Positions 3,100 to 37,295 of a DNA stretch of 64,000 nucleotides are shown here, one piece after another. Origin of the DNA: Rhabditophanes sp. KR3021 (Eukaryota > Nematoda > Chromadorea > Rhabditida > Alloionematidae); assembly GCA_963281155.1 (NCBI GenBank), contig CAUJLY010000002.1, forward strand, positions 7,502,001-7,566,000, written 5' to 3'. The translations under genes were made by a program, and so were the position numbers. The notes beneath the pieces are model-generated. The model had not been told where the DNA came from. It was given only the letters and a program-made list of their open reading frames with translations, and searched no databases. The number at the start of each line of letters is the position of its first letter. Position 1 is the first letter of the stretch.

Positions 3100-4631
3100 T
3101 TAATCTTTCTTGTTTTTTTTGCAAATTTTTTCGTGCCTGCAAAGATCAGTTTTATAATTAAACGATTTTCCACACTTTTGGCAAACAAATTTTATGTTAT
3201 TGTGCTTACTATTTATGTGCCTGGTACAATCACTTTTAGTCGTAAATTTGGATGCACACCCTTCAACATCACAATTAAATCGTCTATTATTGTGCTTGCT
3301 GTTTATGTGGACGTTACGGTGGCTTTTAGTATTATATTCAGATAAACACCCTTCAAATTCACATTTGTATTTTATATCAAGATGTTTTTTAAGATGTTCC
3401 ACGAAATTTCCGTTTAAATTTGCAAGATTAAGAGGTTTAATTTGTACAGAACAACTGGTTACTGGACAACGTAACAAATTGTTATTAATTTCAAAAGTTT
3501 CAGGATGTCTGGAATAGAGATGTTCACTAAATTTCCATATTAATAAAGGATCGGAACACAGTGGACATTTTACTTCTTTACAACAGGTATCATTTTCCAC
3601 CCATACATCATGTTTTTTTTTCTGTATCAATGAAATTAGTTCGCTTTGGCACTTTTCACAAGTAATTGCTTTGAATTCTTTCTCTGCTAACTTAAGAGGT
3701 TTATTTTTTCCGTCTGGATATGAATATTTTTTAAAATTTAGTTGGTTTGCGTTTAAGTTTTCTTCAACATTCTTCAAAATTTGATTATAAATTTGCTTTT
3801 TCAATACTGAATCAAATTTCTTAATTTGAATACCTTTCGATTTATTAAGAAGCTGTTTGGAATATTTATCAATCAATGGGCTCTCTAATACAAGTGAGAG
3901 AGTCTCAGAAAGATTCTCCACTATCTTTATGCCAATAAAGCCTTCTCCATTATTTAATAAGTCCAGAATATGCTTCATTTTTTTTTATTTGAACAATAGC
4001 ATTCATAGCGCACATATCTATAATGTGCGCCCATGCGATCTTTTGTTCCCTTGCCTATGTAAAACAAGCGAAGCAGAAATTCTTCAATGGTTTTAGGCAT
4101 TTTCTTTCCAGACAAAAGTGCATACACATAAAATTCTCCTAATTCGTCCTTCTCTTGAAGTGACTTGTACATATTTTCCCTACCATTCGAATCAATCACA
4201 TTGTTCACCATCGTGTTGCAGTTCTTAGTGTGTCTTATGTTACGTCTGCAATGTGGTTTTTTGCCCTCAGAAGGCTTTATTTCTTTATTTTTAGATAAAG
4301 CAGTAGCACTATCATCCTCATCTATGGAATCATTCGACTCTTCAGGAGTTTCCGAACTACGATCTTCTTCTTCGTCAGATAAATAATTATCAATATTGTC
4401 TTCATCTACAAAACTATCTGACTCTTCGGAAACTTCCAAACTAGAATCTTCGACTTGAGTGATTGGAGCATCAACAACTTGCTGTATATTTCGAACAGAA
4501 GACTTTTGATCTATTTAAATAATATGTATAATTAATTTTAATATTTACTACAAACCTTGACCACTATCATCCTGTTTTGTCATGCCAGCAGTTACTTGAT
4601 CTTCGATATTTTCTTCCTCTTGCGATTCCAT
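3100..4631 (-). CDS. GIY-YIG nuclease fused to C2H2 zinc fingers, frame break at a poly-A run
   Basis: Exon 1 is 4556-4631 (starts MESQEEENIED); exon 2 begins at 4510. The order is: an acidic Ser/Glu-rich stretch; a GIY-YIG domain (FYVYALLSG, FYIGKG, DRMGAHY) whose later half (LDLLNNGEGFIGIKIVENL, LESPLIDKY) carries a candidate catalytic Glu; then C2H2-like fingers (CPLC...H...H, CDVEGC...H...H, CQKCGKSF). The layout of the GIY-YIG part resembles the LEM-3/ANKLE1 type. A run of nine A (3979-3987) separates the two halves in different frames, in the middle of the GIY-YIG domain, so the gene is either a sequencing homopolymer error or a recently broken copy. The start lies a few bases after a TTTTTTAAG acceptor. 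It converges on gpb-2. DNA cutting guided by fingers is inferred, not shown. Confidence 0.65.
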
Positions 4632-5090
4632 TATTTCACTTAAAAAATATAATATGTTGGTAAAAATATCTATTATTTCGACTAAATATAATATCAGAAA
4701 CTATATTGTCAATAAAACTTTTTGTATGATAAAATATTTTAAAATGTTGCATATATGGACGTGAACGTCTTATATACTAGTCTAGACCATGATTGTAGCT
4801 TACAATGTATCAAAGAATTTTTTTACTTGCTAAAAAATGAGACACAGAACTGATTACAGGAAACCATTTTATCAATGTTATGTGTTCTCGTACCAGTCGT
4901 TTTTAAAGAACCGATTACACAAAATCACTTTATCAATGTTATGTGTTCCTTTATCATGCAACTATGCATATGCTATATAAAAAATACCTTCGATAACTGT
5001 CAAAAGTATGTTTAAACGTTCGCATAAAATAATAAATTGTTCGAGTGCAAATTGATACATATTAGTTTAGAAAATATATAATTGCACATC
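4632..5090. repeat. shared upstream module, copy 1 (upstream of the GIY-YIG gene)
   Basis: The sequence upstream of the GIY-YIG start is close to that upstream of the nuclease at 7496-7975. Shared blocks include ATATGGACGTGAACGTC, CTAGTCTAGACCATGATTG, repeated TTATCAATGTTATG units and TATGTTTAAACGTTCGC. Together with exon 1 it forms a common 5' head. It probably contains the promoter and the trans-splice acceptor. Confidence 0.75.
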
Positions 5091-5269
5091 ATTAAATTAA
5101 ACGTCTTATGTTTTAATGAATCATAATAACTAAAGAGATTCGTGTATTACTTTACTCATTAAGAATTGTAATTAAATTCATATATAGTACTCAAACATTT
5201 TAAAAGTTACAAAAAATTGTGTATTTAAATATTGAAGAAGTTTATTTCATATAAAAATCAGAGTATTTA

Positions 5270-5830
5270 ATATTAATTTTTCTTGTTTTGTTCACAACTT
5301 TTTTCGTGATTGTTACGAGCATCATTTCGTGAAAACGAATTTCCACACTTTTGGCAAGCAAATTTTATGTCCTTCAACACCACAATTATATGTTATGTTA
5401 TTGGGTTTGTCTATGTGAATTTTTCTTAAATGTTCCGTGAATCTTTTCTTTAACCATGTAGGATCAGAAGGTTCGATTATTATGTGACAATCTTTTACTG
5501 GACAGTTTAACGAATTGTTGTTAGTTTCAAAAATTTCGGGACGTTCATTAAATTCCCATATTAAGAAATTATCGGTACACAATGGACAAGTTACGTCTTC
5601 ACAACAGTTGTTCATCTCCATCGAGAAATCATGTTTTTTTCTGGATCAATGAAGTTAGTTCGCTTTTGCACTTTCCACAAGTAATTGTTTTAAATTCTTT
5701 CTCTGCTAACTTAAGCCGTTTATCTTTTTCGTCTAGAGAATACACTGTATAAAATAATTTGTTTTCTTCAACATTTGATCACATATTTCTGTTGTCAATG
5801 CTTCGTCGAATTGCTCAATCGTCTGGAACT
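5270..5830 (-). pseudogene. truncated GIY-YIG/C2H2 relative, zinc-finger part only
   Basis: The minus strand carries a shortened relative of the finger region of the gene at 3100-4631. MEMNNCCEDVTCPLCTDNF, NSLNCPVKDCH and FTEHLRKIH align with its CPLC, RCPVTSC and FVEHLKKH. The upstream part (5621-5830) still resembles the linker DNA but is in other frames, and the GIY-YIG domain and exon 1 are missing. At least one finger is lost near 5375. Non-functional remnant. Confidence 0.65.
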
Positions 5831-6076
5831 GATTATTTTAACAATAATTCTTTACTTAATAATACTACGGCACTTACTGGACGTAACGTTCCTATTCATC
5901 ACACATCCAATGGATATTTAGATGATGAAGTAAACAATTATGATTACGACCATATCGCCTTGGAAAGGACAAGCAGGTCTAGGCTTTTCCATCACTGCAA
6001 GTTTGTTAACAAAGAAAATATAAATTTTATTTCAAAAGTGGTTAGATTTAAAAGTCTGATTAAGGATATTATTTAG
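5796..6076 (+). other. unassigned plus-strand reading frame
   Basis: A frame starting MLRRIAQSSGTDYF and continuing with NGYLDDEVNNYDYDH and RTSRSRLFHHCKFVNKENI reads like real protein rather than low-complexity sequence. It lies between the truncated finger gene and the nuclease 3' end and overlaps the nuclease stop by about 45 bases. It could be an exon fragment of a host gene carried into the array. I could not assign a family. Confidence 0.2.
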
Positions 6077-7495
6077 GTACTGGCTATTTGTGTATACTTT
6101 CCCATAAAACGTTTCAAATTTTTCGCCATTCTTTAAGTTGTCATAAGCTTTTGTGAATTCCTCGACAATTTCCTCAAGCTTATTGTATTCAGTATAGGCA
6201 ATTCGTACAAATGAAAGCAGCCCATTTTGACGGCAAAAATCATTTTTCATTTTGTCACTAGATTGTGTCTGCTCAAACTTTTCTTTGCTCATACCAAATG
6301 ATGTAGCGTTAAAATGTTGAGCCCCGTCAACTTCGACGAGGAGGCTTGGAGAAATGAAGATGTCGAAGGGCAATCTATTCTTTTTCCCTCTACAATCATC
6401 AAATTTGTGTTCAGGATGAACTCTTTCTCCATATTTGGCTAAAAGAAGTTCCTTTGTTTTGCCATGAAGAACTGAAACTTTGTCGTCACAGTCGTGGCAG
6501 CAAGGGCCCTGGTTTACTATGCTGTATACAACCTGAGAATGGTGTGTTTCGCACTTTGGACATTCCATGCAAACCTTTGAGTGTGATTGACGAGCGATGT
6601 TTTCGTATTCTTTGATTGGCACTACATTTTCTTTCTTTCTGACATGACAGTCTTCAGATTTGCATAGATTTGCGTATGCTTCAGGAGCATGTGTCTTCAT
6701 TGAATTGTAATGACATGTTTTGCAGCTTATGCAAGATAAACAGCCAGTTACACGACCTCTGCTAACAAAACATTTCGTCCGGTCATTGATTGATGAGTTG
6801 AATTCATGTCCTGAAGGACATTCACAAGTAGGTGTACATTTGAAAATGTATATGTCTTTTGAGCCATAAGTAATCAAATTGTTTTCCTCTTCAGTGACCG
6901 TTACACGTTTACCATTTTTGTCCAATTTGGCAATAATTTCAGGCATCAAACTACGAAATGGTCCTATTTTACTAATCTTGTTAGACTTGGCATTTTTCAA
7001 AAACAAAGATCTTTCATCCTCGGTTGACTCTTTTAACATATCGAATTTGTAAATTTGTTCTTAAAAATAATAAATTTAAAAGAAAAATGGAAAATATACC
7101 CTCGAGCAAATGACTGTATTCATTAACATATTCAACTAAGAGATTAAGATTGCCGACAGAACGTTTTGTAGCAACAAATCCTGTTGAAAACAAGCTAAAA
7201 ACCACTTTCTTTGTTAGGATCTGTCTATTCTTATCCACAAGACCATCTTTCCATTTTTTACCTTGAGCAAAAAAGATTGTATCCATTTGATTCTTAATAC
7301 GAGCTCGTGCTTCAGGTGTTGCTTCTTCGATTGTGAGTGGCTTGAATCTTTTCTTTACTTTTGGAGTATCTTCAGAATCTAGAGCTGATGTATAATTACT
7401 TTTAATATTTACTACAAACCTTGACCAATATCATCCTGTTTGGTCATGCCAGCAGTTACTTGATCTTCTATATTTTCTTCCTTTTGCGATTCCAT
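6032..7495 (-). CDS. zinc-ribbon plus VSR/PD-(D/E)XK-like nuclease
   Basis: Three exons: 7420-7495, 7100-7384 and 6032-7059, joining cleanly to about 462 residues. Exon 1 (MESQKEENIED) is nearly that of the GIY-YIG gene. Then come a region of no known fold, Cys-rich zinc-ribbon segments (CECPSGHEF, CLSCISCKTC, CMECPKCETHH, CCHDC) and a C-terminal block RLPFDIFISPSLLVEVDGAQHF followed by DKMKNDFC and LLSFVRIAYTEYNKLEEIV. The Asp...Glu-Val-Asp-Gly...Gln-His pattern is that of VSR-like endonucleases, which occur in phage and large-virus homing enzymes. The acceptor TTTTTTAAG precedes the ATG by seven bases. The frame is intact here but broken in the second copy. Function as a DNA endonuclease is inferred from motifs. 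Confidence 0.7.
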
Positions 7496-7975
7496 TATTT
7501 CACTTAAAAAATTTAAATTATTAGGAGAAAATATTATTGAATCTATAAAATATAATATGTCGGTGAAAATATCTATTATTTCGACTAAATATAATATCAA
7601 AAACTATATTGCCAATAAAACTTTTTGTATGATAAAATATTTTAAAATGTTGCATATATGGACGTGAACGTCTTATATACTAGTCTAGACCATGATTGTA
7701 GCTTACAATGTATCAAGGAATTTTTTTACTTGCTAAAAAATGAGACACAGAACTGATTACAGAAAACCATTTTATCAATGTTATGCGTTCTCGTACCAGT
7801 CATTTTTAAAGAACTGATAGCAGGAAATCATTTTATCAATGTTATGTGTTCCTTTATCATGCAACCATGCATATGCTATATAAAAAATACCTTCGATAAC
7901 TGTCAAAAGTATGTTTAAACGTTCGCATAAAATAATAAATTGTTCGAGTGCAAATTGGTACATATTAGTTTAGAA
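7496..7975. repeat. shared upstream module, copy 2 (upstream of the VSR-like nuclease)
   Basis: Diverged copy of 4632-5090, in the same orientation relative to its gene. It has a small insertion with TTATTAGGAGAAAATATTATTG just upstream of the start. Blocks ATATGGACGTGAACGTC, CTAGTCTAGACC and TATGTTTAAACGTTCGC are conserved. This shows the promoter-exon 1 unit was duplicated with different downstream coding sequence. Confidence 0.75.
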
Positions 7976-8069
7976 AATATATAATTGTACATCATCAAAT
8001 GAAACGTCTTATGTTCTAATAAATTATATAGCTAAAGAGATTTATATATTTCTTTACATATTAAGAATT

Positions 8070-8500
8070 TTCTATTACAGATGATAGTAGGCAAGAAGTT
8101 GGAAAACACTCAATCTTGGACCAAATCGTAATGTTAAGCATGCTTTGGGTTCATCATAGGATTCTTAACAACCAATTTTTTTATTTTTTATTTGATTAAA
8201 TTTTTTGAGGTCTACGGTAGGGGTCACAAAAAAATCTCGCGATATTGATGACAAAACTGCCAGGGCTTTTTACCATCGGAAAGAGCACATACGATTTACT
8301 ATGAAATCACTTTTCAGAAAGTTTTTTCAGACCCATGGTTGTCTCCGAGCCAAACACTATTTTTGAATGCCAAAATTTAAAGTGTCGAAAAAATTCCCTT
8401 AAAAACAGGGGAAATAAAGAGTTACTATTCTCAGCGTTATACTCATTTGAAGAGCATTAAAACTGTAATGAACGGGGCGAAGTCGTGTATTCGTCTAGTT
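8070..8500. other. richer-GC insert between nuclease relatives
   Basis: Between two homologous flanks (5090-5270 matches the flanks at 7975-8070 and 8500-8590) lies about 430 bp that the other repeat unit lacks. It contains GGTCTACGGTAGGGGTCAC, CTCGCGATATTGATGAC and AACGGGGCGAAGTCGTG, less AT-rich than its surroundings. No ORF or inverted repeat is evident. It may be a non-autonomous mobile element. Confidence 0.35.
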
Positions 8501-8557
8501 AATTAAACTTATATATTCAAGCATTTAAAAAATTGTGTATTTAAGTATTAAAGAAGT

Positions 8558-9474
8558 TTATTTCATATAAAAATCAGACCTATTTAATAGTAAAAATAAT
8601 GATTCTTTTTTATGTGCAATTTCCTGGTGTCTGTTACAATTACCTTTTCGAGAAAACGGCTTTTTACAATTTTGACAGTAGTATTTCTTTTTAATGTGTC
8701 TGGTAAGATTGCTTTCAGTCGTAAATTTCGATGTACACCCTTCAACATCACATTTGTATTTTATATTAAGATGTTCCACGAAATTTGCTTTTAATTTTGC
8801 AGGATTAGAAGATTTAATTACTCCGTGACAATTTTTTACTGGACATTTTAACGAATTGTTTTTCGTTTCAAAAATTTTAGGATGGCTGGAATAGAGATGT
8901 TCATTGAATTCCCATATTAAGAAATCATTGAAACATAATGGAGAAGATACTTGTTCATTACACATGCCCTTCTCCACCCAGAAATCATGTCTTTTTTGTT
9001 GCTTTAATGACTTTATTTTGCTATAGCATATGTAACAGGAAATTGGTATGAATTCTTTTTTAGGTAAATTAAGACGTTCATTTTTTTGTCTAGAGAATAC
9101 ACTTTACAAGCTAATCCTTTTGTGCAGAAATTTTTTTCAACATTCTCCCAAATTTGAGCACATCTATAATGTGTGTCCATACGATTTTTTGTCCCCTTGC
9201 CTATGTAAAACACGCGAGTCCAGATTTCTTTCATTTCCAGACAAACGTATATACACATAAAAGTTTCCTGGCTTGTCGTTCTCTTGAAGTGACTTGTACA
9301 TATTTTCCGTACCATTCGAATCATTGTTCGCCATCGTGTTGCAGCTTGTAGAGTGTTTTTTACTACGCCTGCTATTTGACGTTTACTGTTAGAAAACTTT
9401 GCATCTTCTTCTTCAGATGAACTACTATCACTATCTGACTCTATTTTAAAACAGTCAATGCACTTGACAAGCAC
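8558..9474 (-). pseudogene. third GIY-YIG/C2H2 relative, frame-shifted
   Basis: The zinc-finger half (8558-8977) is open and has MCNEQVSSPLCFND, CPVKNCH, CDVEGC...H and CQNCKKPFSRKGNCNRH. The GIY-YIG half (VFYIGKGTKNRMDTHY) is open at 9013-9474, but the part before it fits the family only after a one-base shift near 9225, and the core between the halves is out of frame. The shared exon 1 is absent; the protein would begin in the Ser/Glu-rich stretch. A decayed copy of the same family. Confidence 0.65.
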
Positions 9475-9560
9475 TATTTTGATAGTATAACTTATTTGAA
9501 AGCAGTATTACATGTTAGTCATGCCAAATCTAAGAAAGAATGAATGTTTTAACTCTAATG
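9475..9560. other. short spacer
   Basis: Short AT-rich spacer between the divergent GIY-YIG relative and the LRR-like pseudogene. Nothing recognised. Confidence 0.3.
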
Positions 9561-10779
9561 CTAAATCATTTTCTTGGCCGAGCAACAAGATTAGAAGAAA
9601 TTAAATTTGGAACTATACAAGACACCCCAAACGTAATATTCCAAGATCATTGCTTGGATTTGCTTTTAATCAAAACAATATTTTTTGTTTTCTCTTAAAA
9701 TCAAAAATATAAGAAACATTAAGTTAAGTTATATATGACACAATATAGAATTCAGATTCAATATAATCAAAAACAGTCGATTTTATGAAATAAAACATTA
9801 AGCAAATTCAAATACCTATGTAAATGTGTGTTCGGTTTCAAACTTCCTATGGATAATCTTTGCAGGCTTCAACTTGTAGGAGCATTGGAATCATTTGAAC
9901 CAACTTTTTCTCAATTTCAGTATATCACACATTTATCTATTAAAGATACTGTTTCTCTTGAAACGTATCGATCATTTGAAACTGTAAATTCCAGACAACC
10001 TACAAACTTTAAATATATGACATCCTCAATGCTGAAACTTAAAACTCTGAAGTTTGATATATATTGGTCACCGTCTGTTTTAATGAACGTTCGAGTATAT
10101 CTTTTCCAAAGACAGTCGAATGTTTGACAATAGAAAAGCCAAAAATAAATTTAACTCATTTTAATATTCAATTAAATGAAGCATATCCAAGCTTGGAGTC
10201 TTTTGATTTTCGCTTGATATGGAGATGGTCATATTATCCAAACTGGCTAAAGGAACTTCCAAACACTCAATCTAATTTTTTTATGCTGTTTCAACATTTG
10301 GAAATCCTTTATATAGATTATGTGTAAAAAGACTTTATTCATTTTTCCAAATGAAGTAAGAAAAATTGTTATTGACTGTCAGATTAATGGCCTTGATCGC
10401 TCTACTGATGTAAGCCAGTTATTAGAACAAAATTGTAATGATTACAATAAAAAAGTGGCAACAATATCTCAACCATTGCCAAGTTGAACTCAAAAAGGCA
10501 TGCTTTTATAGAGAATGTTTTTGTTGTAAAAATGAATTATTTTTGCAAAATGTAAAAATCGAACGTTGTGCGTTAGATCAAGTAAATTACACTTATTTTG
10601 CAAATTCTTATGATTGGGATCTTTATGGAGAATATCACAAAAAGTCGTATTTATCTGGCAGACTCAATCCATTTTATTTTCATAAAGCTACCTTATTATT
10701 TGTAACTCCACATACTCTTATGATAAATTGGGAATTTATTTCCACCTGTGCATATATTATATTTCTTAATTATTTATGA
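9561..10779 (+). pseudogene. decayed leucine-rich-repeat-like protein gene
   Basis: Successive plus-strand frames read like one protein with LRR/F-box-associated character: LGRATRLEEIKFG, DNLCRLQLVGALESF, YITHLSIKDT, LKTLKFDIYW, PKTVECLTIEKPK, LESFDFRLIW, HLEILYIDY, then FPNEVRKIVIDC and a Cys-containing tail. At least four frame changes (near 9710, 10080, 10325 and 10480) lack intron signals. The same breaks occur in the second copy, so they are not random read errors. Nematodes have large F-box/LRR families; the assignment is tentative. Confidence 0.4.
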
Positions 10780-11008
10780 AAGATTCTTTTATTTTATGAG
10801 AAATTAAATATTAGCTGATGCAAAAAGAAAATGATTAATAAAGAGACTTGGTCATTTTAAGTAAATAACTAATTTAGTATATTCCCCATTTTTAAAACCA
10901 TTAATTTTTCTAACACAAATAAAATATGCACTTAATTAGACAACATGAATTAAAAATAGATGATTTTGAAATAAAAGAACTTTCCATACAATAATGTTTT
11001 ATTTCAAA

Positions 11009-12315
11009 TTATAACCAAATTTTGGAACTGTAATAATTTGTATGTGGTAATTGTGTATCCATAATACTCCAGGTTCTGTTATCTTTGTTGTATGATTGAA
11101 TTTGGTCACTAAAAACTCCACCTGCAACAATAATAGATGTTTCATTTTCGATAGATCTTGCACCCAAAACAGGATCAGTCAAATTTGTAAGTTTATACCA
11201 TTTTTTATTTCTTATGTCGTAAATTTGGCACAATGATTCAGTTTTTACACCTCCTGTACATGTAATTGTATGTTCAAACACAGACAGAGCAGTAAAATGT
11301 CTTTTATTTGGAATATCAGCCAAAAAACTCCATTTACCCTCACGTGGATCAAATCTAAAGACTTTATTTATTTAATTAGTGTTTTTAATTACCTTTGGAA
11401 CTTGGTAGACTGAGAATCTCCGACAGCATAAATAATTTCATCAACAATAACTGAATCGTGACATCTAATTTGTTGTAATAATTTTGGAGCATCAACCCAT
11501 TTCATTTTTTCAGGTTCGAAACTAAATATAAAATAAGTATAAATATTGCTATACTTACTATTCAACAGTGTCAATTGAATTGCCATTTAATCTTCCACCA
11601 ATAACATAAATTCTATTTGAGTAAACAACGGATGAATAAACATCTTTATTGCAAGTCATTTCAAATGAAAGAACTTCAGATTTGTTACTTTCCAAATTAT
11701 ACCTAAAAATACTTAGTTAGTAATTAAAACTAAGAACATACTTTTCGATTCTTTTGCTGTTATAATCTCCTAATACAAATACATCATTTCCTATTTTTTC
11801 TGAGCAATGACACCATTTTCCAATAGATAAACTCCCAATTGTTTTTACTGAATTTTGTTTCATATCAATTTCAACAACTGATTGATTTGAATGAAGCCCT
11901 CCAACTTAAAAAATATAATTATTTATTAATCCAAGACTTACACAAAATCATTTTTGAGTAACTATTTTTTGAAACTATGCTGCTCACGGAAATATTCTTA
12001 TTTTTTTTCCCGCAAATTTTAAAGACTAGAAATTCCACTAAATCCGGGATCAAATAAATATTTTTATTTTTTTTAACATATTCCTCTAATGTTATACGTC
12101 CAACTTTTGTATAATCAATTTGTAAAATTAAATCGAGCCAATCTGAATTTCTGGTTTTAAGGTCATATTCGACCCAACGTGTAATTATATCCAAAATTAT
12201 TACTTGATCCTTATTCTTGATAAAATCTTTCCTCATAAGTCTTAAGAAATTGTCTCTTGTAAATGAATCAAATGCTTTGATTTCACAGAGAGCTTTAAAA
12301 TTGGTGGTTATCAGC
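11009..12315 (-). CDS. BTB-BACK-kelch protein, 3' part only (cut by the assembly gap)
   Basis: Copy of the complete gene at 19245-21043, lacking the BTB exons because the contig ends at 12315. BACK segment (FKALCEIKAFDS, WVEYDLKTRN) and kelch blades (GGLHSNQS, GGRLNGNS, GGVFSDQ) are visible, with the same intron positions. It is probably the same locus represented twice. Confidence 0.8.
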
Positions 12316-12815
12316 NNNNNNNNNNNNNNNNNNNNNNNNNNNNNNNNNNNNNNNNNNNNNNNNNNNNNNNNNNNNNNNNNNNNNNNNNNNNNNNNNNNNN
12401 NNNNNNNNNNNNNNNNNNNNNNNNNNNNNNNNNNNNNNNNNNNNNNNNNNNNNNNNNNNNNNNNNNNNNNNNNNNNNNNNNNNNNNNNNNNNNNNNNNNN
12501 NNNNNNNNNNNNNNNNNNNNNNNNNNNNNNNNNNNNNNNNNNNNNNNNNNNNNNNNNNNNNNNNNNNNNNNNNNNNNNNNNNNNNNNNNNNNNNNNNNNN
12601 NNNNNNNNNNNNNNNNNNNNNNNNNNNNNNNNNNNNNNNNNNNNNNNNNNNNNNNNNNNNNNNNNNNNNNNNNNNNNNNNNNNNNNNNNNNNNNNNNNNN
12701 NNNNNNNNNNNNNNNNNNNNNNNNNNNNNNNNNNNNNNNNNNNNNNNNNNNNNNNNNNNNNNNNNNNNNNNNNNNNNNNNNNNNNNNNNNNNNNNNNNNN
12801 NNNNNNNNNNNNNNN
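12316..12815. other. assembly gap, exactly 500 N
   Basis: A run of 500 undetermined bases, the round number used for scaffold joins of unknown size. Any reading frame drawn through it is meaningless. Confidence 0.99.
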
Positions 12816-12853
12816 ACTTGATCTTCGATATTTTCTTCCTCTTGCGATTCCAT
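12816..12853 (-). CDS. partial exon 1 of the GIY-YIG gene, second copy
   Basis: The contig opens inside exon 1 (MESQEEENIEDQ), identical to 4594-4631. The rest of the gene is not present on this contig. It marks the left end of the contig overlap. Confidence 0.7.
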
Positions 12854-13493
12854 TATTTCACTTAAAAAATATAATATGTTGGTAAAAATATCTATTATTT
12901 CGACTAAATATAATATCAGAAACTATATTGTCAATAAAACTTTTTGTATGATAAAATATTTTAAAATGTTGCATATATGGACGTGAACGTCTTATATACT
13001 AGTCTAGACCATGATTGTAGCTTACAATGTATCAAAGAATTTTTTTACTTGCTAAAAAATGAAGACACAGAACTGATTACAGGAAACCATTTTATCAATG
13101 TTTATGTGTTCTCGTACCAGTCGTTTTTAAAGAACCGATTACACAAAATCACTTTATCAATGTTATGTGTTCCTTTATCATGCAACTATGCATATGCTAT
13201 ATAAAAAATACCTTCGATAACTGTCAAAAGTATGTTTAAACGTTCGCATAAAATAATAAATTGTTCGAGTGCAAATTGATACATATTAGTTTAGAAAATA
13301 TATAATTGCACATCATTAAATTAAACGTCTTATGTTTTAATGAATCATAATAACTAAAGAGATTCGTGTATTACTTTACTCATTAAGAATTGTAATTAAA
13401 TTCATATATAGTACTCAAACATTTTAAAAGTTACAAAAAATTGTGTATTTAAATATTGAAGAAGTTTATTTCATATAAAAATCAGAGTATTTA

Positions 13494-14055
13494 ATATTAA
13501 TTTTTCTTGTTTTGTTCACAACTTTTTTCGTGATTGTTACGAGCATCATTTCGTGAAAACGAATTTCCACACTTTTGGCAAGCAAATTTTATGTCCTTCA
13601 ACACCACAATTATATGTTATGTTATTGGGTTTGTCTATGTGAATTTTTCTTAAATGTTCCGTGAATCTTTTCTTTAACCATGTAGGATCAGAAGGTTCGA
13701 TTATTATGTGACAATCTTTTACTGGACAGTTTAACGAATTGTTGTTAGTTTCAAAAATTTCGGGACGTTCATTAAATTCCCATATTAAGAAATTATCGGT
13801 ACACAATGGACAAGTTACGTCTTCACAACAGTTGTTCATCTCCATCGAGAAATCATGTTTTTTTCTGGATCAATGAAGTTAGTTCGCTTTTGCACTTTCC
13901 ACAAGTAATTGTTTTAAATTCTTTCTCTGCTAACTTAAGCCGTTTATCTTTTTCGTCTAGAGAATACACTGTATAAAATAATTTGTTTTCTTCAACATTT
14001 GATCACATATTTCTGTTGTCAATGCTTCGTCGAATTGCTCAATCGTCTGGAACTG
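13494..14055 (-). pseudogene. truncated GIY-YIG/C2H2 relative, second copy
   Basis: Same as 5270-5830, with the open finger fragment at 13546-13845. No differences of note. The plus-strand frame described at 5796-6076 recurs at 14020-14300. Confidence 0.6.
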
Positions 14056-14255
14056 ATTATTTTAACAATAATTCTTTACTTAATAATACTACGGCACTTA
14101 CTGGACGTAACGTTCCTATTCATCACACATCCAATGGATATTTAGATGATGAAGTAAACAATTATGATTACGACCATATCGCCTTGGAAAGGACAAGCAG
14201 GTCTAGGCTTTTCCATCACTGCAAGTTTGTTAACAAAGAAAATATAAATTTTATT

Positions 14256-15720
14256 TCAAAAGTGGTTAGATTTAAAAGTCTGATTAAGGATATTATTTAG
14301 GTACTGGCTATTTGTGTATACTTTCCCATAAAACGTTTCAAATTTTTCGCCATTCTTTAAGTTGTCATAAGCTTTTGTGAATTCCTCGACAATTTCCTCA
14401 AGCTTATTGTATTCAGTATAGGCAATTCGTACAAATGAAAGCAGCCCATTTTGACGGCAAAAATCATTTTTCATTTTGTCACTAGATTGTGTCTGCTCAA
14501 ACTTTTCTTTGCTCATACCAAATGATGTAGCGTTAAAATGTTGAGCCCCGTCAACTTCGACGAGGAGGCTTGGAGAAATGAAGATGTCGAAGGGCAATCT
14601 ATTCTTTTTCCCTCTACAATCATCAAATTTGTGTTCAGGATGAACTCTTTCTCCATATTTGGCTAAAAGAAGTTCCTTTGTTTTGCCATGAAGAACTGAA
14701 ACTTTGTCGTCACAGTCGTGGCAGCAAGGGCCCTGGTTTACTATGCTGTATACAACCTGAGAATGGTGTGTTTCGCACTTTGGACATTCCATGCAAACCT
14801 TTGAGTGTGATTGACGAGCGATGTTTTCGTATTCTTTGATTGGCACTACATTTTCTTTCTTTCTGACATGACAGTCTTCAGATTTGCATAGATTTGCGTA
14901 TGCTTCAGGAGCATGTGTCTTCATTGAATTGTAATGACATGTTTTTGCAGCTTATGCAAGATAAACAGCCAGTTACACGACCTCTGCTAACAAAACATTT
15001 CGTCCGGTCATTGATTGATGAGTTGAATTCATGTCCTGAAGGACATTCACAAGTAGGTGTACATTTGAAAATGTATATGTCTTTTGAGCCATAAGTAATC
15101 AAATTGTTTTCCTCTTCAGTGACCGTTACACGTTTACCATTTTTGTCCAATTTGGCAATAATTTCAGGCATCAAACTACGAAATGGTCCTATTTTACTAA
15201 TCTTGTTAGACTTGGCATTTTTCAAAAACAAAGATCTTTCATCCTCGGTTGACTCTTTTAACATATCGAATTTGTAAATTTGTTCTTAAAAATAATAAAT
15301 TTAAAAGAAAAATGGAAAATATACCCTCGAGCAAATGACTGTATTCATTAACATATTCAACTAAGAGATTAAGATTGCCGACAGAACGTTTTGTAGCAAC
15401 AAATCCTGTTGAAAACAAGCTAAAAACCACTTTCTTTGTTAGGATCTGTCTATTCTTATCCACAAGACCATCTTTCCATTTTTTACCTTGAGCAAAAAAG
15501 ATTGTATCCATTTGATTCTTAATACGAGCTCGTGCTTCAGGTGTTGCTTCTTCGATTGTGAGTGGCTTGAATCTTTTCTTTACTTTTGGAGTATCTTCAG
15601 AATCTAGAGCTGATGTATAATTACTTTTAATATTTACTACAAACCTTGACCAATATCATCCTGTTTGGTCATGCCAGCAGTTACTTGATCTTCTATATTT
15701 TCTTCCTTTTGCGATTCCAT
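14256..15720 (-). pseudogene. VSR-like nuclease, second copy, frame broken by one T
   Basis: Identical to the gene at 6032-7495 except for an extra T in a T run (about 14940-14946). This splits the zinc-ribbon region, so the upstream part ends in CKNMSLQFN and the nuclease part restarts at MKTHAPEA. As the other copy is intact and the change is in a homopolymer, a read error or allele is more likely than real decay. Confidence 0.7.
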
Positions 15721-16557
15721 TATTTCACTTAAAAAATTTAAATTATTAGGAGAAAATATTATTGAATCTATAAAATATAATATGTCGGTGAAAATATCTA
15801 TTATTTCGACTAAATATAATATCAAAAACTATATTGCCAATAAAACTTTTTGTATGATAAAATATTTTAAAATGTTGCATATATGGACGTGAACGTCTTA
15901 TATACTAGTCTAGACCATGATTGTAGCTTACAATGTATCAAGGAATTTTTTTACTTGCTAAAAAATGAGACACAGAACTGATTACAGAAAACCATTTTAT
16001 CAATGTTATGCGTTCTCGTACCAGTCATTTTTAAAGAACTGATAGCAGGAAATCATTTTATCAATGTTATGTGTTCCTTTATCATGCAACCATGCATATG
16101 CTATATAAAAAATACCTTCGATAACTGTCAAAAGTATGTTTAAACGTTCGCATAAAATAATAAATTGTTCGAGTGCAAATTGGTACATATTAGTTTAGAA
16201 AATATATAATTGTACATCATCAAATGAAACGTCTTATGTTCTAATAAATTATATAGCTAAAGAGATTTATATATTTCTTTACATATTAAGAATTTTCTAT
16301 TACAGATGATAGTAGGCAAGAAGTTGGAAAACACTCAATCTTGGACCAAATCGTAATGTTAAGCATGCTTTGGGTTCATCATAGGATTCTTAACAACCAA
16401 TTTTTTTATTTTTTATTTGATTAAATTTTTTGAGGTCTACGGTAGGGGTCACAAAAAAATCTCGCGATATTGATGACAAAACTGCCAGGGCTTTTTACCA
16501 TCGGAAAGAGCACATACGATTTACTATGAAATCACTTTTCAGAAAGTTTTTTCAGAC
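15721..16557. other. shared upstream module and spacer, second copy
   Basis: Repeats 7496-8330: the common head module followed by spacer and the start of the richer-GC insert (about 16295-16725). No gene. Confidence 0.6.
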
Positions 16558-16782
16558 CCATGGTTGTCTCCGAGCCAAACACTATTTTTGAATGCCAAAA
16601 TTTAAAGTGTCGAAAAAATTCCCTTAAAAACAGGGGAAATAAAGAGTTACTATTCTCAGCGTTATACTCATTTGAAGAGCATTAAAACTGTAATGAACGG
16701 GGCGAAGTCGTGTATTCGTCTAGTTAATTAAACTTATATATTCAAGCATTTAAAAAATTGTGTATTTAAGTATTAAAGAAGT

Positions 16783-17699
16783 TTATTTCATATAAAAATC
16801 AGACCTATTTAATAGTAAAAATAATGATTCTTTTTTATGTGCAATTTCCTGGTGTCTGTTACAATTACCTTTTCGAGAAAACGGCTTTTTACAATTTTGA
16901 CAGTAGTATTTCTTTTTAATGTGTCTGGTAAGATTGCTTTCAGTCGTAAATTTCGATGTACACCCTTCAACATCACATTTGTATTTTATATTAAGATGTT
17001 CCACGAAATTTGCTTTTAATTTTGCAGGATTAGAAGATTTAATTACTCCGTGACAATTTTTTACTGGACATTTTAACGAATTGTTTTTCGTTTCAAAAAT
17101 TTTAGGATGGCTGGAATAGAGATGTTCATTGAATTCCCATATTAAGAAATCATTGAAACATAATGGAGAAGATACTTGTTCATTACACATGCCCTTCTCC
17201 ACCCAGAAATCATGTCTTTTTTGTTGCTTTAATGACTTTATTTTGCTATAGCATATGTAACAGGAAATTGGTATGAATTCTTTTTTAGGTAAATTAAGAC
17301 GTTCATTTTTTTGTCTAGAGAATACACTTTACAAGCTAATCCTTTTGTGCAGAAATTTTTTTCAACATTCTCCCAAATTTGAGCACATCTATAATGTGTG
17401 TCCATACGATTTTTTGTCCCTTTGCCTATGTAAAACACGCGAGTCCAGATTTCTTTCATTTCCAGACAAACGTATATACACATAAAAGTTTCCTGGCTTG
17501 TCGTTCTCTTGAAGTGACTTGTACATATTTTCCGTACCATTCGAATCATTGTTCGCCATCGTGTTGCAGCTTGTAGAGTGTTTTTTACTACGCCTGCTAT
17601 TTGACGTTTACTGTTAGAAAACTTTGCATCTTCTTCTTCAGATGAACTACTATCACTATCTGACTCTATTTTAAAACAGTCAATGCACTTGACAAGCAC
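16783..17699 (-). pseudogene. third GIY-YIG/C2H2 relative, second copy
   Basis: Same as 8558-9474, including the same frame shifts, with one C/T difference near 17422. It belongs to the duplicated contig overlap. Confidence 0.6.
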
Positions 17700-17785
17700 T
17701 ATTTTGATAGTATAACTTATTTGAAAGCAGTATTACATGTTAGTCATGCCAAATCTAAGAAAGAATGAATGTTTTAACTCTAATG

Positions 17786-19034
17786 CTAAATCATTTTCTT
17801 GGCCGAGCAACAAGATTAGAAGAAATTAAATTTGGAACTATACAAGACACCCCAAACGTAATATTCCAAGATCATTGCTTGGATTTGCTTTTAATCAAAA
17901 CAATATTTTTTGTTTTCTCTTAAAATCAAAAATATAAGAAACATTAAGTTAAGTTATATATGACACAATATAGAATTCAGATTCAATATAATCAAAAACA
18001 GTCGATTTTATGAAATAAAACATTAAGCAAATTCAAATACCTATGTAAATGTGTGTTCGGTTTCAAACTTCCTATGGATAATCTTTGCAGGCTTCAACTT
18101 GTAGGAGCATTGGAATCATTTGAACCAACTTTTTCTCAATTTCAGTATATCACACATTTATCTATTAAAGATACTGTTTCTCTTGAAACGTATCGATCAT
18201 TTGAAACTGTAAATTCCAGACAACCTACAAACTTTAAATATATGACATCCTCAATGCTGAAACTTAAAACTCTGAAGTTTGATATATATTGGTCACCGTC
18301 TGTTTTAATGAACGTTCGAGTATATCTTTTCCAAAGACAGTCGAATGTTTGACAATAGAAAAGCCAAAAATAAATTTAACTCATTTTAATATTCAATTAA
18401 ATGAAGCATATCCAAGCTTGGAGTCTTTTGATTTTCGCTTGATATGGAGATGGTCATATTATCCAAACTGGCTAAAGGAACTTCCAAACACTCAATCTAA
18501 TTTTTTTATGCTGTTTCAACATTTGGAAATCCTTTATATAGATTATGTGTAAAAAGACTTTATTCATTTTTCCAAATGAAGTAAGAAAAATTGTTATTGA
18601 CTGTCAGATTAATGGCCTTGATCGCTCTACTGATGTAAGCCAGTTATTAGAACAAAATTGTAATGATTACAATAAAAAAGTGGCAACAATATCTCAACCA
18701 TTGCCAAGTTGAACTCAAAAAGGCATGCTTTTATAGAGAATGTTTTTGTTGTAAAAATGAATTATTTTTGCAAAATGTAAAAATCGAACGTTGTGCGTTA
18801 GATCAAGTAAATTACACTTATTTTGCAAATTCTTATGATTGGGATCTTTATGGAGAATATCACAAAAAGTCGTATTTATCTGGCAGACTCAATCCATTTT
18901 ATTTTCATAAAGCTACCTTATTATTTGTAACTCCACATACTCTTATGATAAATTGGGAATTTATTTCCACCTGTGCATATATTATATTTCTTAATTATTT
19001 TTACTTATTTATGAAAGATTCTTTTATTTTATGA
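17786..19034 (+). pseudogene. decayed LRR-like gene, second copy
   Basis: Same as 9561-10779 with identical frame breaks. Near 18994 it has about ten extra bases that lengthen the last open frame. Identity is tentative, as for the first copy. Confidence 0.4.
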
Positions 19035-19244
19035 GAAATTAAATATTAGCTGATGCAAAAAGAAAATGATTAATAAAGAGACTTAGGTCATTTTAAGTAA
19101 ATAACTAATTTAGTATATTCCCCATTTTTAAAACCATTAATTTTTCTAACACAAATAAAATATGCACTTAATTAGACAACATGAATTAAAAATAGATGAT
19201 TTTGAAATAAAAGAACTTTCCATACAATAATGTTTTATTTCAAA

Positions 19245-21043
19245 TTATAACCAAATTTTGGAACTGTAATAATTTGTATGTGGTAATTGTGTATCCATAA
19301 TACTCCAGGTTCTGTTATCTTTGTTGTATGATTGAATTTGGTCACTAAAAACTCCACCTGCAACAATAATAGATGTTTCATTTTCGATAGATCTTGCACC
19401 CAAAACAGGATCAGTCAAATTTGTAAGTTTATACCATTTTTTATTTCTTATGTCGTAAATTTGGCACAATGATTCAGTTTTTACACCTCCTGTACATGTA
19501 ATTGTATGTTCAAACACAGACAGAGCAGTAAAATGTCTTTTATTTGGAATATCAGCCAAAAAACTCCATTTACCCTCACGTGGATCAAATCTAAAGACTT
19601 TATTTATTTAATTAGTGTTTTTAATTACCTTTGGAACTTGGTAGACTGAGAATCTCCGACAGCATAAATAATTTCATCAACAATAACTGAATCGTGACAT
19701 CTAATTTGTTGTAATAATTTTGGAGCATCAACCCATTTCATTTTTTCAGGTTCGAAACTAAATATAAAATAAGTATAAATATTGCTATACTTACTATTCA
19801 ACAGTGTCAATTGAATTGCCATTTAATCTTCCACCAATAACATAAATTCTATTTGAGTAAACAACGGATGAATAAACATCTTTATTGCAAGTCATTTCAA
19901 ATGAAAGAACTTCAGATTTGTTACTTTCCAAATTATACCTAAAAATACTTAGTTAGTAATTAAAACTAAGAACATACTTTTCGATTCTTTTGCTGTTATA
20001 ATCTCCTAATACAAATACATCATTTCCTATTTTTTCTGAGCAATGACACCATTTTCCAATAGATAAACTCCCAATTGTTTTTACTGAATTTTGTTTCATA
20101 TCAATTTCAACAACTGATTGATTTGAATGAAGCCCTCCAACTTAAAAAATATAATTATTTATTAATCCAAGACTTACACAAAATCATTTTTGAGTAACTA
20201 TTTTTTGAAACTATGCTGCTCACGGAAATATTCTTATTTTTTTTCCCGCAAATTTTAAAGACTAGAAATTCCACTAAATCCGGGATCAAATAAATATTTT
20301 TATTTTTTTTAACATATTCCTCTAATGTTATACGTCCAACTTTTGTATAATCAATTTGTAAAATTAAATCGAGCCAATCTGAATTTCTGGTTTTAAGGTC
20401 ATATTCGACCCAACGTGTAATTATATCCAAAATTATTACTTGATCCTTATTCTTGATAAAATCTTTCCTCATAAGTCTTAAGAAATTGTCTCTTGTAAAT
20501 GAATCAAATGCTTTGATTTCACAGAGAGCTTTAAAATTGGTGGTTATCAGCTGTTCAGTCAAATTATGATACTCTTCGAGTTCAGATCTACTAGAGTTTT
20601 CATAGAAAATGCCTAGGTAAGTAACAAAATCCTTTTTTTTAATCCATTCGATTAACTTAATCTAAATAAATAATTAAAAGTTACTCAAAATGAACGCACT
20701 CTTATATCAGGCGAGTTTAACTTAATTTGAACTTGCAACAAAGCGACGATCTTATTCCCATCAATTTTAAAGTCATCTCCAAAATAAACGTATTCATAGT
20801 AAACTTTAAAATCAGCCAGCTTCAAACTCTTAATATTAAATTTGGCTGAAACAACCAAGTTTATTAAAAGAATATATTAATAACCTTACTTTTGGTGACA
20901 TCCTTGGTGAACACATCAAAAAAAATTTTGCTATGTCCAGCTAACATCATTCTTGAAACTTTTATAGATCCATCACTGAATACTAATTCAGCATCATTAA
21001 AAAGTCTAGCTCCAAACAAATTGGGAAAATATTGATAGATCAT
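19245..21043 (-). CDS. BTB-BACK-kelch protein (KLHL-like), complete
   Basis: Proteins of this family usually act as substrate adaptors for CUL3 ubiquitin ligases. Start ATG at 21043 (MIYQYFPNLFGARLF); exon 1 ends at 20890. The BTB part has LVFSDGSIKVSRMMLAGHSKIFF and LADFKVYYEYVYFG. The BACK part has LITTNFKALCEIKAFD, FLRLMRKDF and WVEYDLKTRNSDWLDLI. Kelch blades follow, with GGLHSNQS, VLGDYNSKRIEK, YVIGGRLNGNS, YAVGDSQSTKFQRFDP and GGVFSDQIQSYNKDNRTW. About seven exons are separated by short GTAAG...TTTAG introns. The BTB N-terminus is short, so an upstream exon is possible. The reading frame appears intact throughout. Confidence 0.8.
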
Positions 21044-33770: not shown

Positions 33771-34562
33771 TCAATTCGTCATTGTTTTTAAACGCATTTC
33801 TAGACATTCAACTGGCGTGTAACCCTTATGACCTTCAAGGGGTATTAAACTTTTGGTGCCGGCTTTTGTGATGATATGCAGCATCACATTACCATTGACA
33901 ACCACAACGCTAATAGCCGGACAAAAATTCTTCCATTCTCTCACACCATGCTTTCTCTTCAAATTTTCTTCAAACTCCCTGAGTCTAGCTACACACTTTG
34001 CCATCGAATTCTTCAATTCTTCGTCTGTCTTAGGATTTCTAATAATAGGAGACTCGTTGCTTGAAAAAAATTTCTTCATTGCACCCTTGTAAACGGGAAC
34101 ATCCAAATCATCAACCACTTTCTCCCACTCCAAATTAGTCTCCCAATCATTTTCATCAAGTATTTGACAAACAATCATTTTCTACAAAAATTAAACATTA
34201 TAGATATATTTGCGACTTACCTCCAGTCGGTAACAACAAAGAGAATCAGCAACGATCATCAAATCACCAACATCATAATCCAAAATATCAAAGGCCTCTG
34301 TATCCTTGGCATAGTCAACATAACATTCTAGCTGTTTAGGTGTCAAGAAATCTATGATGATTTTTGTGCAAACCTCTACCACTACCTTCTCCATCATATA
34401 CCCAGAAGTTGCAAACAAACGCATGCTGGGAACAAAGTGAATCGTCTCATCATCATCCTTTAAAGTAACTTTGATTATTCTTCTAAAATCTATTTTCAAA
34501 AGTGGGGCATATAATTCATTTATAGTATTAATCCTTTCACTGTCCCTACTGTATCTTACCAT
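33771..34562 (-). CDS. BTB-like domain protein A
   Basis: Two exons (34221-34562 and 33771-34181) give 250 residues. A TTTTAG acceptor lies three bases before the ATG. The N-terminal half resembles a BTB/POZ fold: IHFVPSMRLFATSGYMMEKV, then IIIDFLTPKQLECYVDYAK and DVGDLMIVADSLCCYRLEKM. The C-terminal half (WEKVVDDLDVPVYKGAMKKF, CPAISVVVVNGNVMLHI) is unassigned. It is a relative of the gene at 36588-37295, and they share intron position and the sequence DYAKDTEAF. Confidence 0.55.
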
Positions 34563-36587: not shown

Positions 36588-37295
36588 TTATGTAGACTTG
36601 TTCGAAAGTTCCTCATCCAAAGAATCCATATTTAAAAAGGCACCTGAGTGTTGTTGATTTGAAGTAGATTCCAACATAACTTTAGCTGCTTCAAAACTTG
36701 TATCAGTATGTTCCTTGATCCTCCCAAAATACTTTTCCATTGCATCTTTATAAACAGGAACATCCAATTCATCAACCACTTTCTTCCATTCCAAATTAAC
36801 TTCTAGTCCATTTCCATCAAGTATTTGGCGAACAATAAATTCCTACAAACATAAATACAAATATGTGATATATTTATGACTTACCTCTAGTCGAAAACAA
36901 CAAAGTGAATCAGCAACGATCATCAAATCGGAAATATCGTAGTCCAAATAATTAAACGCCTCTGTATCCTTGGCATAGTCAACATAGCACGCTAGTTGTT
37001 TGTAGGTTAAAAAATGATCCATGTAGATTCTTGAGCTACCACCCGCCGCCATCACCAACTTGTCTATCATATAGCCAGAAGTTGTGAATAGACACTCAGC
37101 AGGTACGATAAAATCATGTCCACCATTCTTCTTCAACTTTCCATTATCCTTTAATATCCCACCATCCTTTAACTTTCCATCATCCTCTCCTTTCAATCTA
37201 ATTCCGATGTCGCAGTTGAGATTTATATTTAAAAGAGTGCCATACATCTTCATTGTGGCATTAATCCTTTCACTGTCCCTAATGTATCTTGACAT
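36588..37295 (-). CDS. BTB-like domain protein B
   Basis: Two exons (36885-37295 and 36588-36842) give 221 residues, starting three bases after TTTTTTTCAG. It is a clear relative of 33771-34562: MSRYIRDSERINATMKM, VPAECLFTTSGYMIDKLV, CYVDYAKDTEAFNYLDYDIS, MIVADSLCCFRLE, then WKKVVDELDVPVYKDAMEKY. It carries a Lys/Gly/Asp-rich insert with repeated GKLK/KDNG motifs and has a shorter, different C-terminal end. Confidence 0.55.

Follow-up and report, generated by a model that had tools for sequence, protein, structure and literature searches.

The closest described counterparts of the elements considered here are the shintrons of mirusviruses, spliceosomal introns with a homing-type nuclease gene reported in 2025 in four classes, including VSR-like and GIY-YIG ones; in the portion of the report on which we draw, its authors state that eukaryote genomes apparently lack equivalents (PMC12768974). 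Literature on introners (nematode, endonuclease) and on homing endonucleases (spliceosomal intron, metazoan nuclear genome) offered, among the matches listed and in such text as they provide, no example from an animal of a spliceosomal intron with a homing nuclease, and literature on 'shintron' comprised the mirusvirus paper and one unrelated paper only; as far as these partial sources go, the arrangement is otherwise described only in large viruses of protists. Here we analyse a stretch of 64,000 nucleotides from the nematode Rhabditophanes sp. KR3021 (the window, C2:7502001-7566000, in a 44.8-Mb assembly of six contigs, labelled C1 to C6; L numbers denote loci), in which two nuclease genes on the minus strand, the GIY-YIG/C2H2 gene A and the zinc-binding/VSR gene V, begin with the same upstream DNA and first exon, referred to as the head. 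We consider it an evenly balanced proposition that this animal nuclear genome harbours spliceosomal homing introns, whereby nuclease-assisted insertion carried VSR-like and GIY-YIG families, each copy a whole antisense intron, into conserved coding motifs, and that free-standing nuclease genes under one captured promoter escaped from them.

Gene A consists of exon 1 (4631-4556), intron 1 (4555-4511) and an exon 2 starting at 4510, its body (4510-3100) encoding a LEM-3-like GIY-YIG domain followed by a C2H2-like region; gene V has exons at 7495-7420, 7384-7100 and 7059-6032, the third holding a zinc-binding region and the VSR-type nuclease in a frame of 342 amino acids. The first 25 residues of both align as MESQ[E/K]EENIEDQVTAGMTKQDD[S/I]GQ, and intron 1 lies in phase 1 and starts with GTTTGTAGTAAATATTAAAA in both. 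Past exon 1 the bodies are unrelated, one head standing on a GIY-YIG and on a VSR-type nuclease, just as a sequence-only reading of the window had described. At the DNA level, the heads (4524-5167 in gene A, 7388-8069 in gene V) align over 683 columns at 89% identity, an alignment that takes in exon 1 together with about 540 bp upstream of its ATG and some 30 bases at the start of intron 1, after which they part ways; the upstream sharing first proposed is real and longer than the roughly 450 bp then given. The GIY domain of gene A falls into two overlapping frames (3975-4510 and 3100-3984) split at a run of nine A (3986-3978), which is likely an assembly indel, since the UniRef model P0002 reads through the place uninterrupted. 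For intron 1 of gene V there are two candidate acceptors, CAG/CT in our analysis and TAG/AT in the UniRef model P0001. Over the stretches compared, the two genes and their UniRef entries, which carry the name Rhabditophanes sp. KR3021, are identical.

As had been suspected, each of the two nuclease bodies is a member of a selfish-looking family with many copies. The VSR exon query gave 69 matches, which fall into 49 places spread over five contigs when those of the window itself are counted. We examined 17 dispersed loci, mostly the best-scoring (L027, L028, L030, L031, L033, L034, L036, L058-L063 and L070-L073), and in 14 of them the copy, antisense to an unrelated host gene, appears to take up an entire intron of that gene, with spliceosomal donor and acceptor, whose removal restores the host frame, as in shintrons. 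One candidate, L033, was left uncounted: its join needed a forced donor and the joined peptide matched no Pfam family. Intron lengths range from 450 to 1544 bases (13 measured; L073, 933). The joined exons matched, in Pfam, PDZ (two genes), Nramp, FIT, GMPPB C-terminal, proprotein convertase P-domain, calponin, aldehyde dehydrogenase, ATP synthase alpha/beta N-terminal, calpain III and NGP1NT families, and the match spans the join in 10 of the 11 hosts, the best stretch shown for calponin (L060) stopping short of it. No Pfam family exceeded its cut-off for the joined exons of L031, L034 (presumably PTB) and L072 (which we take, from a motif, to be SNAP-29-like), nor did any NCBIfam family reach its cut-off for the joined L072 peptide. 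Borders, joins and orientation were read directly from the DNA, and splicing in vivo would be expected from them.

The GIY-YIG body has comparable relatives. A genome scan with PF22945 returned 23 matches, 16 of them over the cut-off; P0002 (47.1 bits against a cut-off of 27), the C5 GIY frame, L074 and L075 all exceed it. Among five relatives examined, L064 and L053 from the protein search and L055, L074 and L075 from PF22945 places, three (L064, L053 and L074) seem to lie antisense in introns whose removal restores the frame. That of L064 interrupts a mevalonate kinase-like gene at GAGGGGC/LYAFL, where GHMP_kinases_C spans the join and mevalonate kinase is the best NCBIfam model, below its cut-off for this short piece; that of L053 falls exactly between GPP and GCGKT of the Walker A motif of an AAA/FtsH-like gene, presumably AFG3, with AAA over its cut-off and FtsH the best NCBIfam model, below cut-off for the piece; that of L074 lies in a WD40 gene, matched by WD40 only, which we assume to be CIAO1. 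The L064 and L053 copies are 82% identical over 365 bases. Because these three lie antisense in introns like the VSR copies, both bodies joined to the head have, on this reading of the DNA, intron-borne relatives. The GIY-YIG model links gene A, through P0002, and its relatives to LEM-3/ANKLE1. Proteins of that kind carry ankyrin repeats and a LEM motif, neither of which was detected in Pfam scans of the gene A pieces and P0002; gene A differs from them further in its C2H2-like region, and some of its relatives in lying antisense in introns. The GIY frame of L074 had no PHROG match.

The nuclease part of gene V is predicted to fold like Vsr and the homing endonuclease I-Bth0305I (PDB 3r3p). 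When all of exon 3 was submitted, the nuclease part came out unmodelled (pLDDT 58.8); predicted alone, it gave a usable structure with the Vsr-like fold. A stretch of candidate catalytic residues, EVDGxQH, is discernible. By sequence family and predicted fold, this part resembles phage VSR-type homing endonucleases (I-Bth0305I; PHROGs 9084 and 7140), which are genes of phages, whereas here the nuclease sits in spliceosomal introns or behind a captured head and has an additional N-terminal exon. A viral-contig scan with P0003 found no relative, and the PDB sequence search with exon 3 gave one row at E 0.068. In the protein database, whose search needs shared words, the VSR query recovered nothing beyond its own UniRef entry and the GIY query nothing beyond its own gene; a VSR profile added one metagenome protein.

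Like introners (PMC9169325 and PMC12768974, in the text of these that we use), the VSR introns are similar to one another in unrelated genes, and the similarity does not continue into the exons: when ten exact introns were compared at E 1e-5, sequence was shared in 43 of 45 locus pairs, whereas the 300-base exon flanks gave 0 of 45 and each of five shuffles 0. The two PDZ genes (L058 and L063) are interrupted at the same codon and phase and have 16 exon bases in common. Unlike introners, these introns carry nuclease genes, and by eye no terminal inverted repeats were seen at their ends. The acceptor-side DNA of L028 gave 25 matches in 23 places, only 11 of which are VSR places, and derivatives of the intron lacking recognised VSR sequence therefore probably exist. 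Rfam includes group I and group II intron models. A scan of 16 loci (97,917 bases) gave no Rfam match at the gathering score and thus no group I or II signature. Nine further matches can all be put down to a single stretch of L031 that is not part of its counted intron. At 2904-3163 of L031, outside the counted intron, VSR-intron sequence is matched a second time, possibly by another copy that has suffered a deletion. VSR-intron end sequence also occurs at C1:2494899 and C6:7855, 3-4 kb from C1:2498294 and C6:4280, two of the three strongest PF22945 matches.

By structure, the intron-borne copies would fit the shintron/introner kind, with a mobility that we infer. As in shintrons, a homing-type endonuclease gene lies inside the intron, although here it is broken or partial (VSR; GIY in L074 and L064). 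They differ in residing in the animal's own nuclear genes, in the decay of the copies examined and in having free-standing relatives under a shared head. Moreover, the nuclease is antisense to the host in every resolved case here, and the main text of PMC12768974 contains no wording on antisense, opposite strand or orientation. Insertion sites would resemble homing-element site choice, with the PDZ codon hit twice and Walker A and the GAGGGGC motif once each. Most likely the copies worked in a homing-like manner, splicing concealing the insertion from the host and the antisense nuclease helping the intron to copy itself to further coding sites, which supposes expression and cleavage as well.

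The foremost alternative, which we regard as unlikely, is that the VSR and GIY sequences are mobile genes of an ordinary kind, inserted into introns that were already there and that tolerate insertion, the intron not being the mobile unit and the nuclease not driving intron gain, with the head chimera arising as we propose. It fits poorly with similarity that, in four genes unrelated to one another (L028, L059, L031 and L062), stops no more than 2 nt short of either splice site and that, in L063, L027 and L061, comes within 2 nt of the acceptor; with a GC donor common to three hosts (L028, L058 and L059); with the single orientation of all matched introns (0 opposite-strand matches); and with the absence of the intron from the site in the one other NRAMP place and in all 11 further places with aldehyde dehydrogenase sequence, counted as uninterrupted matches at these sites. 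That most copies are old and broken would suit it, and this belongs to a set of observations that weigh against the homing-intron reading. Stops interrupt 45 of the 69 VSR matches, and the longest antisense frame in 13 VSR introns measures 91-160 amino acids, against 342 in gene V exon 3; present mobility of the examined copies is therefore not indicated. L033, L070 and L071 (three of the 17 VSR loci) were not placed in an intron. Similarity ends well inside the intron on one side in L060 (41 nt from the donor, 433 from the acceptor) and L058 (88 nt from the acceptor), which again favours insertion into existing introns, and 20 nt from the donor in L034. The GIY copy of L055 lies outside any intron, downstream of what we take to be an exchanger-like gene; no intron was established for L075; and L053 is a remnant without detectable GIY motif, recognised by DNA similarity to the L064 copy. 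Foldseek found no PDB match under E 0.001, its best row being an R2 retrotransposon entry at E 0.11. Finally, dN/dS between the VSR bodies of gene V and its C5 counterpart is 0.73 over 322 codons, weak evidence of function, and constraint on these bodies is therefore weak at best.

A probable origin of gene V can be followed through dlg-1. Native dlg-1 (L058, on C4) runs on both sides of an intron holding a 5'-truncated, broken, antisense VSR copy, and beyond the VSR stop a reversed piece of dlg-1 is found on both C2 and C5. On C5, L057 6765-8433 matches L058 4501-6125 at 89% identity. On C2 the dlg-1 piece is shorter, a plus-strand fragment opposite gene V (5823-6055, an exon with the start of the first PDZ) that reaches a breakpoint at 5823/5822, where it joins the 5'-truncated remnant of GIY gene B (about 5822-5270, minus strand). 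Gene B is the one truncated GIY relative between genes A and V, where the sequence-only reading had put several; another relative, the decayed gene C (9435-8527, minus strand, no head found), lies outside that interval. Both VSR genes share the junction ATACA[T/C]CAGCT, where the 5' part of GIY intron 1 is joined to VSR sequence. Chimeric genes are known to arise by segmental duplication and exon capture, with one gene's promoter and first exon fused through an intron to another body; here, in distinction, both partners are nucleases with intron-borne relatives.

We regard it as probable that gene V is such a chimera, formed by segmental duplication, that the nucleases escaped from intron life and that the head is a trapped promoter. 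A relative of VSR-type homing endonucleases in the antisense intron of native dlg-1 would represent the source family. A segment of dlg-1 exons with the VSR intron would have been duplicated beside a free-standing head-GIY unit, the GIY-YIG gene itself being kin to a family with intron-borne members, and the VSR body would then have fused once inside intron 1 of that unit, so that the VSR frame came to stand behind the promoter and exon 1 of the GIY gene. Heads and body tracts would later have been swapped between the versions at C2 and C5, and both nucleases would be escapees under the trapped promoter. This account draws on the locations of the copies, the shared intron ends, the predicted fold and the kinship of the C4, C5 and C2 loci, and its sequence of events is a reconstruction. 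In the dlg part the three loci are about equally distant (94.3-96.4%), so that either of C2 and C5 may be the earlier. A purely local history, in which gene conversion or a deletion inside a single cluster brought the GIY head to the VSR gene next to it and the intron copies have no bearing on this, draws on the conversion-like tracts and on the adjoining GIY and VSR genes at both loci. We judge it improbable: dlg-1 exons flank the VSR body at both loci, the native dlg-1 intron still has a VSR copy, and the upstream region that dispersed VSR copies have of their own, conserved in several, is missing at C2 and C5.

Head DNA and head peptide were searched across the whole assembly, the search scoring its best candidates only, and beyond the window and its second copy the head was found only at C5:449069-451379 (L057), where a head-VSR gene comes after a head-GIY gene. 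The four heads are of two types, a longer leader in C5-GIY and C2-VSR and a 39-bp leader deletion in C5-VSR and C2-GIY (gene A). Since the C5-VSR head is 97% identical to that of gene A, the 3' end of the preceding GIY sequence included, and the VSR heads of C2 and C5 are 88% identical to each other, heads and bodies appear to have been re-paired between C2 and C5 after the first joining. The VSR bodies are likewise mosaic, seven consecutive 60-base windows at 95-100% identity lying amid windows of 70-93% (the last window, a gap, excluded). The C5 VSR copy lacks exon 2 and remains in frame, because both introns are in phase 1. The sequence-only reading had named a gene conversion confined to the upstream region as the competing account of the shared part; the exchange of heads comes close to this, yet two loci are involved. 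That reading had also envisaged a fixed promoter-exon head as a mobile module joined to different DNA-cutting domains; although the head is shared by two unrelated bodies, occurs on two scaffolds and shows cross-assorted leader types, we reject it as a portable expression module and consider such mobility very improbable, given that the whole assembly yielded no third locus and no third body and that GIY sequence precedes each head, as tandem GIY units predict. What disperses would seem to be the bodies, not the head, largely as antisense introns. Beside the C5 cluster, a 475-base inverted repeat (L057 378-851 against 3117-3591, 97.5% identical) flanks reading frames and looks like a DNA transposon.

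The published assembly of R. diutinus KR3021 was, according to the portion of the source used here, built from Nanopore reads with Pilon and 3D-DNA and comprises six Hi-C scaffolds, of which five measure 6.5-11.2 Mb and the sixth about 2 Mb (PMC10676810). In the window, 4594-12315 recurs at 12816-20551 with 99.8% identity, the copies being separated by a scaffold gap of exactly 500 N (12316-12815) and differing by a single substitution, by four indels of one base and by one of 10 bases; in the second copy, one of the indels disrupts the VSR frame. The repeat is probably one sequence assembled twice, at two contig ends, although a recent tandem duplication may be its origin. Because the former is the simplest reading, the second set was left out of gene counts. 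A presumably kelch-like gene, so named from a motif, lies at 11009-12315 and 19245-20551, the gap cutting its first copy. A direct repeat (34065-34411 against 36726-37084) is 78% identical over 361 columns. Within a G-beta-like gene, a 942-base intron (1152-2093) holds broken antisense reading frames that matched no Pfam family; with only three short DNA matches elsewhere, it was rejected as a copy of VSR or GIY family DNA, and it is possibly another intron-borne relic.

The question of how genomes gain spliceosomal introns is an old one. In its main text, a study of nematode intron gain and loss names neither Rhabditophanes nor Strongyloides (PMC9169325). Rhabditophanes KR3021 is, by the passages of the source used here, free-living and kept on plates with OP50 (PMC10676810). 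A plate-grown worm with dozens of places of the kind described here makes the question of intron gain testable.

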